A DNA stretch of 64,000 nt from an uncultured Clostridia bacterium (GTDB taxonomy: Bacteria; Bacillota; Clostridia; TANB77; CAG-508): assembly GCA_947590905.1 (NCBI GenBank), contig CANQCU010000002.1, positions 1 through 64,000 of the forward strand. The letters are read 5' to 3'. Of this stretch, positions 40,548 through 45,549 are shown in pieces. The translations under genes were made by a program, and so were the position numbers. The notes below the pieces were generated by a model, which was not told the DNA's origin, did not search any database, and worked only from the letters and a program-made list of their open reading frames with translations. The first letter of the stretch is position 1; every line of letters starts with the position of its first letter.

Positions 40548-43500
40548 TTATAATATATAAGGGTTATTTAATGAACCGCGAACCGTCTAATTATTTCACT
40601 ACTACCGTCTAATTTGAACACTGGACGGATCGCAGCTGAAGGCGCATACCCTTCACCACCATATGGTATGTTTGTTCTCCCGATCGAACACGAAGAACCC
40701 TCTACTACCATATTTGCCCCATGTTGCAGTTCCCGGCATATCGGGCCACCAGTAACCACCTATACTATTCCCAGACCAATCCTCCCACAATTTGTCTTCT
40801 CCCACGTCGTAGAAAGGATACCAAAAGTGCCCCCAGCATTCATAATATGAGAGACACCTTTCGGTTCCATTTTCGTCGGTGATCCATTCCCAAGTCGCCC
40901 ACATAGCTACTCCCGGGGTCTGCGTGAAGTCACTCGGAGTAATCGTTTCAAATGGAACATTGAGTAGTTGTGTTGTATCCCCAGGATAGCCATTCTCTTT
41001 TAAGTATTTTAAAAACTCATCTGCCAAATTCCAGTGATCTGCAAAGTTTTCTGATGCTGCTTGAGTCCCGTCCGGATTAGTTCCTATACATCTTGATTCT
41101 AAAATATTGGGTCCCGTATACTTTGAAGATTCTTGTATTATATATTTATATGCAGTACTAAACGACCATACAGATCTGAATAATTTATTTAGCTGATTAT
41201 TAGTATCTAATACTCGTAGTTCTTCGGGTGCTTGGCTTGAAATTCTAGGGTCCAAATAACCTAAAGTTAAAGAATCCCCAGCAGAAGTCAGTGTAGCAAC
41301 CTGAATACCGATAGTTCGTACCATGACTTTTATTATATTCCTCATCATATATACACACACATGGTACTAATTTGTCGCAGCCATCCACCTCAACGTCAAC
41401 AAAATCACCTACTTTTATAGTATTTCTAGCTAGCTTTGGAGGGTCTGAAGTCTTTACACTTGTATCAAGAACTTTTTCTCTATATTGACCATTGAAAGCT
41501 GTTTCCTTTGTTTTTATGAAGTAAGTCGTACCAGCTTGTAAATTATTAAATACGAATTTCGCACTAGTGCCTTCAAAATTTTTCATTTCACTTCCGTAAT
41601 ATATTCCGCTAGCAGGTGCAGTTGCCTTCATCCAAGGTCCGTCCTTTGATGTTGAAACTTCAACAGCTATAGAGTACGTACCACACTTTTCAGTAAAAGT
41701 CTGGACATGTAGTGATATTGATTCACTCGTAGTCTCGTCAGTAGTAACAGAAGCGTCTTGAGTAAAGCCAATTTTATCATATTTTATTGTATCTATCTCT
41801 GCCATATCTGATTTATTACCTGCTTTATCAAAACAGTAAGCATAAATTTTAGCAAATCCAGCATTGTGAGAATAGATATCAACTTTAGTACTTTGTTGAT
41901 TTATAGTGTTTGATAAATCATCTTTTTTAAAATCTGTACCAGATTCTGAATAATCTACATGATATTCTATCTTACTTGAACCTGAACCTGGCGTAGGATC
42001 TTCTCCTGCATCTATTTGAACATTTACATCACTACCATACCAGTCATTATGTCCTTTTGTACCTGATATTATTCTTATATTTGGTTTTGCCGGTTTTTGT
42101 GTGTCTTTATACACTTTTAATATTGTGCTTTCTGATACATTTCCTGCTTCATCTTTTGTATATGCTGTTATCGTTGTTTCTCCGTCTCTTGTTATTGTTT
42201 GTTGTACTACATTTCCGTTTGTTGTATTACTTATTCCTCCATTAGTAATTTCATAAATTAACTGTAATTGTCCTGAACTTGGTTCTGGGTCAGTTCCTGT
42301 TGTTATTGTTATTCCTACTTCACTTATATACCATTGTATATCCCCTTGTTTTTCTCCTGGAGTTCCTGTTGTTATTTCTACTTTTGGTTTTGCTGGTTTT
42401 TGTGTGTCTTTATTTATTGTATCTGAATAAACTTGTGTTTTATGTTCTTGTTCGTCTACTCCCCATACTTCTAATCTATGTGTTCCATCTTCTAAATCTA
42501 ATTTTGGTGGATTATTTGGATCATATCTCTGTGGATCTCCTCCATCTATACTCCATTCAAAGTGATCTACTCCTGATGTTCCATCTTTTATTGAATCTTC
42601 TACTGTTAATGTTATATCGCCTTCTGTATACCAATCATTATTTCCTTTATGTGATCCTGTTACTGTTACATTTGGCATCTCTAATCTTCCATATGTTGAT
42701 GCTCCATCTATTGCTTCGCTTCTTACTTTATTTCCTGCTTCATCTTCTACTTCTACATATGCTGTATATGTTTTATTTACCCCTAAACCTGTTGCATCAT
42801 ATATGTTTGTATTTAACTTTTCTTCTTTTTTTATTTCTGTACCCATATCCTGTATATAGTAACTATATTTTAATTTTCCTTCTCTTGCTTCATTTCCTGA
42901 TAACTTGTCTTCTGCTAATACTTGTATTTGGAAACTTCTTGGCATTCTAGATTCTTCTGGTACTTGTGCTGATATTATCGTTGGCTTTTCTGTATCTCTT
43001 CTTACTTCTATCAGTATTGAATCTGATACGTTTCCGGCATTATCTTTTACTCTAAATTCTAATGTTCTTATTCCATCTTTATCTATTACTTTTGGCATAT
43101 TTACTGTATCTACTGCTGTCCATGCACTCTTTCCATCTACTGTCATATCTATTTCTGCATCATAGTCTGGATCCTTTATTGCATATCTCCATTCATATCC
43201 TGATACTAATGAATTTGCATCTGTTGATGTTGCAAGTGATATCTCTACATTGGTTGTGTGCCATTGTTTTCCTTCTATACTTGGTGTTATTGCCCAATGT
43301 AATTCCGGTTTTACATTATCATAATGTACTTCTGGATCTAGTGTTCCTATCTCTGATATGTTTCCTTTCTTATCCATTGTATATGCTGTTACTGTTATTG
43401 TTCCTGCTGTATTTGGTAATGCTATATCCTCTGCTACTTTTCCTTCTACTGTTTTTTCTCCTTGTGATACCCCATTTACTGATACTTCATAACATATTCC

Positions 43501-44334
43501 TGTTGCTGTTTCATTTTCTGTATGGATTCTTACTACTACTTGTCTATTATCTGCTCCATACCATCCATTATTACATACTCCACTTTTACTTTCTACTACT
43601 TCTATTGTTGGTTTTACAACTGTACTTGTTACTCTTACCCATGCATATCTATAGTAACCCTTACTTGATGTTACTTTTACTATATACCATCCCATCTTTT
43701 GAAGAGTTACTGTTTTATTTACTTCTTTCTCTCCGTTAAAATCTAATGATGTCTCTGTCTCGTCTGTTGCATTATCTGTATATATCGTTCCTCTATGTAG
43801 TATCTCAACCTTTGCTACTCCATTTTTATCTTTTACTTTAAAATTTAATCCTGCTGTCTTTTTGTCATACTCTGTTTTTATTTTTGGTAGATTTTCTTCT
43901 TCTCCTTTTCCTACATATTCAATAAATCTTTGACCTGTTAATTCATCATAATATATTTGATACATATATCCGTCTGTTGTTGTTGCTAATATATCATCAT
44001 TTGTATCTGCATCTCCTACATTTGTATATATACTTTTTGTCCATATTGTTTCACTATCTTGCATTAGCTCTGCTAAGTTTTGCATTGTTATGCTTTTTCC
44101 CATCATTGAGTATTCTGCTATTGCATTTTCTCTTAGCTCTAGCAATTGTTCCTTATATTGCTCTATTTTATATTCTTCTGCTGCAACTTGTGTTGTGTCT
44201 ATTATTCCTGTCTCTCCTGTTAATCCTCTTATTGTTACTGCTGCAAGTACTACTAATATTATTATCATTATTATTAGAGCAATTAAAGTAATACCACTTT
44301 CATGGTTGTTGTTTGGTCCCACTTTAGTTTTCAT
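40548..44334 (-). CDS. Giant prepilin-like surface protein with Ig-like repeats, four CGG frame breaks
   Basis: The protein starts MKTKVGPNNNHESGITLIA, and the ESGITLIALIIMIIILVVL segment is a type IV prepilin-like N-terminal helix. A coiled region follows, then repeated Ig/Big-like modules joined by DTQKPAKPK-type linkers, and a C-terminal domain containing YAPSAAIRPVFKLDG. The frame needs four C skips at CGG (41308-41310, 40680-40682, 40583-40585, 40576-40578). The restored end RGSGSLNNPYIL matches the GxGxxxNPYxL ending seen in related proteins. Total about 1260 aa. The ATG at 44334 follows AGGAGG; a GTG at 44379 is upstream of that site. The last 750 nt are clearly richer in G+C. Confidence 0.85.
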
Positions 44335-44437
44335 ATTGTTTGGTTTCCTCCTTAGTATTATTTTTCGTTTGGTTTCCACTTTTTTAAATCTTTTGGGAAT
44401 ATTTATTGTTCATATTTTTCTATATTTTTTAGTCTCT

Positions 44438-44521
44438 TTCCCCTTATGGTTAGAAATTAAAATAGCAAAAGTCAATACCAAACAAAACCAAAACTATTTT
44501 AATTTCCAACCATAAAGGGAA
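44438..44521 (-). repeat. 28-bp fold-back in the surface-protein leader
   Basis: ttccccttatggttag... at 44438-44465 pairs with the inverted copy at 44494-44521, with two differences in 28. Both differences are G-U pairs in the minus-strand RNA but A-C mismatches in the plus-strand RNA. The element lies between the predicted minus promoter (44563-44591) and the start codon, so it would fold in the 5' leader of the surface-protein mRNA. Confidence 0.72.
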
Positions 44522-44534
44522 TTTATCACTTTAT

Positions 44535-44608
44535 ACAACTAAAGTGTTGTGTAAGTAATTTTATTGTACAACTAATTTGTTGTATTGTCAATACAATTAA
44601 TTGGTTGT
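44535..44608. promoter_or_regulatory. Three operator palindromes for the divergent repressor
   Basis: Three near-identical 16-bp palindromes lie in the divergent intergenic region: acaactaaagtgttgt (44535-44550), acaactaatttgttgt (44568-44583) and acaattaattggttgt (44593-44608). They overlap both divergent promoters. They are natural binding sites for the small HTH protein encoded at 44728. Confidence 0.8.
44563..44591 (-). promoter_or_regulatory. Promoter of the giant surface-protein gene
   Basis: TTGACA (44586-44591) and TACAAT (44563-44568), 17 nt apart on minus. The middle operator fills its spacer. Confidence 0.82.
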
Positions 44609-44613
44609 ATTGT
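44585..44613 (+). promoter_or_regulatory. Promoter of the HTH repressor gene
   Basis: TTGTCA (44585-44590) and TATTGT (44608-44613), 17 nt apart on plus. The -35 overlaps the -35 of the divergent promoter, and the third operator fills the spacer. Confidence 0.75.
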
Positions 44614-44727: not shown

Positions 44728-44949
44728 ATGCAAAAAACTAGATTAAAAGATTTGAGAGAGGATAACGAATTATTACAAAAAAATATTGCTAATATGCTTA
44801 ATATGAAGCAACAGCAATATTCTAGATATGAGACTGATGAAAATGAAATACCTGTTACTTTACTTAAGCAATTAGCATTATTTTATAATACGAGTACAGA
44901 TTATATTCTTAGACTTACTAATAATAAAAAGCCCTATCCTAGGGCATAA
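44728..44949 (+). CDS. Small Cro/C1-type HTH repressor
   Basis: A 73-residue HTH_3 (Xre family) protein. The helix-turn-helix lies in LQKNIANMLNMKQQQYSRYE, and the C-terminal part YNTSTDYILRLT is the usual end of the domain. A TTG at 44710 is in frame, but AAAGGA fits the ATG at 44728 better. It is divergent from the giant surface-protein gene, with three palindromes between them, so it probably represses both its own gene and the surface gene. Confidence 0.88.
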   Translation: MQKTRLKDLREDNELLQKNIANMLNMKQQQYSRYETDENEIPVTLLKQLALFYNTSTDYILRLTNNKKPYPRA

Positions 44950-44958
44950 TTTTATTAT

Positions 44959-45549
44959 TTAATTTGCGTAACCCTTTGATATTAAGCTATTTTCTATTTC
45001 TCCTATTCTTTTTATTACAGATGTTGTAAGTGGCAATAATACATAATTTGATTTTGTTAATATGTTCTTTATATTTAATTTAAATCCCTTTGCTTTTAAA
45101 GAATACTTCAGTTCTTGCACTTCTTTTTGGATAATTGGTACAAATGATACTCCTATAGCTACAATTATTCCTATTTCTTTTGAATCTATTTGTATTATTT
45201 TTAATGGTTTTAATAATATTTCTACTGTATTTTGCAATTTATTTATTGTGAATTTTCTAGTGAAAATATATGTAATATTGCATACAAGTATTAATCTTAT
45301 TCCTATTAATATTCCAAAGCTAAATCCTGTTATTAGCACATTTATTATTGTTGTAAATAGGATAAATGGCATAAGTTTTAAGATTAACATTAATGCATTT
45401 TTTATATTTTCTTTTAGAGCTAACATAAGTAAAATGTTTATAGCTAATACTACTGCTAGTAACTCATAGCTTTTTATAAAGAATATTAAAATTGTATACA
45501 TTATAAATAGTAGGAATTCTAATACCCACAAAAATTTTGTTTTTTTCAT
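44959..45549 (-). CDS. ecfT: ECF transporter transmembrane subunit EcfT
   Basis: The 196-residue protein has five hydrophobic segments and the CbiQ/EcfT coupling region with short-side-chain motifs (SLKAKGFKLN and NSLISKGYAN, equivalent to the two ARG-like motifs that contact the ATPases). It is the last gene of the folT-folC-ecfA-ecfT unit, so it should couple ATP hydrolysis to folate uptake by FolT. Confidence 0.85.
   Translation of the reverse strand: MKKTKFLWVLEFLLFIMYTILIFFIKSYELLAVVLAINILLMLALKENIKNALMLILKLMPFILFTTIINVLITGFSFGILIGIRLILVCNITYIFTRKFTINKLQNTVEILLKPLKIIQIDSKEIGIIVAIGVSFVPIIQKEVQELKYSLKAKGFKLNIKNILTKSNYVLLPLTTSVIKRIGEIENSLISKGYAN

Follow-up and report, generated by a model that had tools for sequence, protein, structure and literature searches.

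Probable locking of a giant modular type IV prepilin by a private repressor in an uncultured Clostridia bacterium

The window described here, a stretch of 64,000 nucleotides from an uncultured Clostridia bacterium, contains a divergent regulatory region at which a giant modular type IV prepilin, one of a repertoire with a shared leader RNA, is probably locked by a repressor of its own. A probability of about 0.78 is assigned to this reading. The sequence evidence comprises the layout of the region, its conservation in relatives, the co-variation of operators with recognition helices, the association of a regulator with each prepilin, the covariation within the leader RNA, and the pilus genes of the genome. 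From these, we infer DNA binding and repression by a 73-residue helix-turn-helix (HTH) protein. The relevant features, numbered by window position, are as follows.

40568..41360, minus strand: apparent out-of-frame continuation of the prepilin 3' end, read from ORFs 40653-41360 and 40568-40759
41245..44334, minus strand: gene for the giant modular prepilin, 1029 residues as read, with a prepilin N-terminus and Ig-like/OmpL47 repeats
44347..44351, minus strand: GGAGG ribosome-binding site of the prepilin gene, from sequence
44438..44521, minus strand: hairpin of 84 nt in the leader RNA of the prepilin transcript, with 27 pairs and a conserved GUUUGGU in its loop
44534..44551, no strand: candidate operator O3, TACAACTAAAGTGTTGTG, shortly after the predicted prepilin transcription start
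44563..44591, minus strand: prepilin promoter TTGACA-17-TACAAT, 11/12 consensus, -35 at 44591-44586 and -10 at 44568-44563
44567..44584, no strand: candidate operator O2, TACAACTAATTTGTTGTA, perfect 6-bp arms, filling the prepilin promoter spacer
44585..44613, plus strand: HTH-gene promoter TTGTCA-17-TATTGT, 9/12 consensus, -35 at 44585-44590 and -10 at 44608-44613
44592..44609, no strand: candidate operator O1, TACAATTAATTGGTTGTA, within the HTH-gene promoter spacer
44728..44949, plus strand: gene for the 73-residue XRE-type HTH regulator, Pfam HTH_3, E 1.5e-10
44931..44945, plus strand: small G+C-rich stem-loop where the HTH gene ends, resembling a terminator on either strand by pattern match

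The minus-strand prepilin gene starts at position 44334 and the plus-strand HTH gene at position 44728, with the two divergent promoters between them. The first-pass annotation had described overlapping -35 boxes, one palindrome in each spacer, and a third downstream of the surface-gene promoter. Each of these elements is present. As read from the sequence, positions 44586-44590 are common to both -35 boxes; O2 occupies the spacer of the prepilin promoter and O1 that of the HTH-gene promoter, and O3 lies at about +5 to +22 relative to the predicted prepilin start. The three sites are 18-bp palindromes of the TACAAC-N6-GTTGTA type, spaced by 25 bp (O1-O2) and 33 bp (O2-O3). A scan of the 1.55-Mb genome allowing up to two mismatches returned O1, O2, and O3 together with just four scattered matches, all of them with two mismatches. 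Note that a promoter scan on its own gave no excess of promoter-like sites in this A+T-rich region.

The regulator is a single-domain protein, in which the HTH_3 match spans residues 6-60, and the 73-residue HTH repressor gene proposed earlier corresponds to ORF 44728-44949. The protein lacks a cI-like C-terminal domain for oligomerization or cleavage. A profile built from its relatives matches structures that include ICEBs1 ImmR and CylR2 (1utx, E 2.2e-5), and the closest profiles and structures include RstR, ICEBs1 ImmR, and PezA. Against the RstR phage repressor family (NF041951), it scores 46.1, which is under the curated cut-off of 80. The next gene, ORF 44959-45549, is convergent and resembles a transporter component.

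The N-terminus of the 1029-residue protein, GITLIALIIMIIILVVLAAVTIRGL, is prepilin-like by motif, with a G-I/F-T-L element and a hydrophobic helix. It is followed by Ig-like/OmpL47-type repeats, which constitute a large extra module. No Pfam pilin model reached threshold for the protein. The genome encodes both PilB/PilT-type ATPases (PF00437) and a prepilin peptidase (PF01478), above cut-off, and export of the protein on type IV filaments is thus plausible. On these grounds we infer a modular type IV prepilin, presumably displayed on the cell surface. The ORF stops at position 41245, and overlapping ORFs in other frames appear to continue it up to an IRPVFKL-type tail; the pieces at 40653-41360 and 40568-40759 gave no Pfam match. 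This out-of-frame 3' end may reflect an assembly error or a real lesion or frameshift.

Of 145 genomes from the same bacterial family, 99 encode relatives of the HTH protein, and the DNA upstream of the genes for these relatives displays a recurring plan, operator-TGTCAA-operator, in which the operator words differ. A high-scoring pair of similar palindromes was found upstream of 41 of 146 such relatives, as compared with 2.3% of shuffled sequences. The spacing of these pairs peaks at exactly 25 bp (15 of the 41), and a second group at 30-33 bp resembles the O3-O2 interval. Third operator sites also occur in L008-L011, L018, and L023. In close relatives O1 tends to TACAAT-N6-ATTGTA, and its difference from O2 follows a consistent pattern. 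When 32 relatives were picked on HTH similarity alone, 14 (16 with the hairpin) had a divergent prepilin motif within 1 kb, versus 12 of 801 control ORFs (1.5%). The pairing is rare in a wider contig set drawn from more distant taxa (5/88), and is therefore mainly a family trait. Two close relatives, L010 and L011, carry the same three ACAAC/GTTGT-type operators opposite short genes without a recognized prepilin motif, and the repressor-operator unit can therefore couple to other targets. The genes that flank the window module have no counterparts beside the related modules that were fetched, the exceptions being generic ABC-type or glycosyltransferase-like matches and DprA near L160 and L178.

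Among the HTH relatives, the same recognition helix tends to accompany the same operator. The helix QQQYSRYE is paired with ACAAY-N6-RTTGT, RQQYGLYE with GCATTCATTTGAATGC, and QPQYARYE with ATAACTAATTAGTTAT. Across 40 loci, for which both the operators and the helices were picked by one scoring script, operator similarity correlates with helix identity at r = 0.67. The partial correlation is 0.59 with the rest of the HTH protein held constant, whereas it is 0.19 for the remainder of the protein once the helix is controlled for. In a Mantel test, none of 2000 permutations reached the observed value (p < 0.0005). Such a pattern is that expected of a co-evolving repressor and operator, and it constitutes strong indirect evidence that the HTH protein binds the palindromes. 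Together with the conserved layout, it argues for the central claim of the first-pass annotation, namely that the HTH protein, the three operators, and the divergent promoters would control the giant surface protein.

The leader hairpin, which the first-pass annotation had not mentioned, is a multicopy element of the genus. A total of 82 distinct copies was collected, with 22-27 in one genome. Where enough downstream sequence is available, the hairpin usually reads into a prepilin ORF (38 recognized); for many of the others the contig ends first, and L139, L156, L160, L178, and L193 are exceptions. In an alignment of 45 sequences, 13 of the 27 pairs have changed on both sides, and the observed covariation scores are reached in none of 500 shuffles. 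On the mRNA strand, the stem contains 153 G-U pairs versus 12 A-C mismatches, and this imbalance points to an RNA. Searches of Rfam returned just weak matches below cut-off. Beyond the genus, two weaker matches were found in other genera of the family, and the element is thus nearly confined to the genus. The shared leader probably provides a common post-transcriptional control of the prepilin set.

Two specific roles for the hairpin were considered and rejected. It does not resemble an intrinsic terminator in that no U-run follows the stem, and pairing of its loop with the ribosome-binding site gave p = 0.36 in a genome-level swap test. At the window locus itself, loop and ribosome site match well (inverted repeat I3), and for the 38 hairpin/prepilin pairs the predicted pairing of the loop with the start region is -17.2 kcal/mol as compared with -12.4 kcal/mol for control start regions. 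In one genome (G152; loci L125, L143, and L195-L200) the loop is the variant GUUUGGUCUUUU, and the start region holds its complement, AAAAGACC.

In this genus, most prepilin genes led by the hairpin are accompanied by a small divergent regulator of their own, and many of these regulators are of different types; that the window module belongs to such a set, mostly with differing repressors, had also escaped the first-pass annotation. Of the 51 distinct short divergent proteins encoded within 300 nt of a hairpin, 41 match HTH_3 and two match CopG. The promoters upstream of the hairpins differ; at least 11 of the 12 consensus positions are matched in 44% of them, as opposed to 1.6% of shuffles, and a clear palindrome near the promoter spacer accompanies 24% of hairpin-led prepilins, as opposed to 3% of shuffles. 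For the G152 hairpin-led prepilins, no small divergent regulator was found nearby.

Within the genome of the window, three different regulators accompany three hairpin copies. The first of these is the present 73-residue XRE protein. The second is an 86-residue XRE protein of another kind, opposing an intact 1394-residue prepilin with Big_2 domains, and that module (L148:4046-8835, contig C9) lies near lysS and an L,D-transpeptidase-like gene. The third (L147:434-640, contig C4) is a 67-residue ribbon-helix-helix-like protein of the CopG type; the divergent regulators at L134 and L166 are likewise ribbon-helix-helix (CopG-type)-like rather than XRE. The hairpins of the C2 and C4 copies are 98% identical, and their regulators are XRE and ribbon-helix-helix-like, respectively.

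Prepilin-type genes number up to dozens per genome. At loci L149-L206 (in G138, G146, G150, and other genomes), the contig very often breaks off no more than a few hundred bases from a hairpin copy, which suggests that these positions contain long repeats that are nearly identical, or that they vary in structure. Since many of the relatives are metagenome assemblies with hairpin copies at their contig ends, the counts of complete modules are lower bounds.

In the proposed mechanism, the 73-residue XRE protein, presumably as a dimer, would bind the three TACAAC-N6-GTTGTA palindromes. Bound at O2 and aided by O3, it would block RNA polymerase at the near-consensus prepilin promoter, which would otherwise be on by default, and bound at O1 it would limit its own weaker promoter and thereby regulate itself. 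Because the -35 boxes overlap, polymerase would occupy one promoter at a time, such that the overlap would add mutual exclusion. Most other hairpin-led prepilins of the genus would likewise be governed by private small regulators, often with distinct operator words in the promoter spacer. A broader proposal, put forward tentatively and held to be rather less probable than not, is that giant modular pilins, numbering up to about two dozen, form an addressable repertoire, in which mostly private autoregulated repressors with their own operator words, and a leader RNA common to the hairpin-led copies and acting on the set, would allow cells to display different subsets without DNA rearrangement.

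The first-pass annotation had raised bistable expression, and a switch of the lambda or RcoLS20 kind, in which the HTH protein at O2 would repress the prepilin gene while activating its own weak promoter, to give cells that keep themselves OFF and, rarely, cells that are stably ON, must be weighed against the simple lock. The three operators and the strong promoter opposing a weaker one would suit it, and the consistent difference between O1 and O2 in close relatives could grade affinity. RcoLS20 offers a precedent, in that it activates itself from divergent promoters that overlap and differ in strength, and since such a design can include this feature, a bistable version is still conceivable here. 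It is nevertheless considered unlikely given that a second repressor is absent and the protein is a small single-domain one. In lambda, the distance between OR2 and PRM is about 6 bp. O2 is centered 9.5 bp upstream of the HTH-promoter -35 box, measured to the first base of the box, which is farther than in lambda, and cI-like self-activation is therefore not indicated.

The hairpin might instead mark a recombination site where promoter/regulator cassettes and prepilin genes change partners, the private regulators being by-products of the shuffling. Copies with unrelated upstream promoters and regulators do have the hairpin in common, as in the C2 and C4 pair, and many contigs end near one. Repeated sequence alone also predicts such contig ends, however, and the retention of G-U but seldom A-C on the mRNA strand speaks for an RNA, so that this explanation appears improbable. 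Still less credence is given to the idea that the HTH protein is an immunity repressor from a phage or other element, whose gene happened to settle next to that of the prepilin and which acts chiefly on its own expression. The RstR, ImmR, and PezA matches are in keeping with such an origin, but the association with prepilins in many genera, the many unrelated regulators at the same position, and the location of operators, across many unrelated copies, in the spacer of the prepilin promoter are not. That the palindromes arose by chance is scarcely credible: the region is A+T-rich and the promoter scan by itself shows no excess, but the concentration of the motif at this locus, the conserved spacing, and the co-variation with the recognition helix contradict it. 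The private repressor lock is accordingly preferred.

Bacterial surface variation is generally attributed to DNA inversion, slipped repeats, or gene conversion. If the lock operates as proposed, surface pilins would be varied via transcription factors alone, with each giant surface protein of these gut bacteria separately controllable. The dozens of natural repressor/operator pairs, with proteins of ∼73 residues, would offer material for learning the HTH recognition code, and the new leader RNA has a partner that can be looked for. The class of circuit is already known from CylR2 and RcoLS20; what appears to be new is that it is deployed many times over with giant modular pilins as its targets, the regulators being interchangeable and a structured leader RNA being held in common. 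In the open-access literature searched, private-repressor control of modular pilins with a shared leader was not found.

The first-pass annotation had likened the region to cI/cro control. As in lambda, three operators extend across divergent promoters and one lies in the promoter of the regulator, and this part of the likeness stands. In contrast to lambda, there is no Cro or other second repressor, the opposing gene encodes the 1029-residue prepilin-like protein, the regulator has no cI-like C-terminal domain, and the operator-to-promoter distance differs. Control of the cI/cro type is unsupported because the HTH gene faces a structural gene and 73 residues leave no room for a C-terminal domain; the comparison holds for layout only, and not for family membership.

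A closer parallel in scale is CylR2 of Enterococcus faecalis, a 66-residue XRE repressor of the cytolysin operon, where overlapping divergent promoters separate regulators from target genes (PMC3709268). Induction in that system requires CylR1, a suspected membrane protein whose gene accompanies that of CylR2. The window regulator is likewise a small single-domain HTH protein with overlapping divergent promoters and inverted-repeat operators, but its gene stands alone without a CylR1-like membrane partner, its target is a prepilin, and its module is one of many per genus. RcoLS20, from the Bacillus subtilis plasmid pLS20, is autoregulated from a weaker promoter that is overlapped by the strong divergent target promoter, and, as a tetramer of about 85 kDa, it loops the DNA between two operator clusters (PMC4207663). 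The unequal overlapping promoters recur in the window, whereas RcoLS20 is the larger regulator and its two looped operator clusters are not seen here. ICEBs1 ImmR and RstR-type proteins are the closest profile and structure matches but, unlike the window protein, are encoded on mobile elements. With respect to the target, the modular type IV pilins PilB and PilC of S. sanguinis described by Raynaud et al. combine a prepilin N-terminus with large extra modules (PMC8179133). The window protein is built on the same plan, but is far larger and carries Ig-like repeats.
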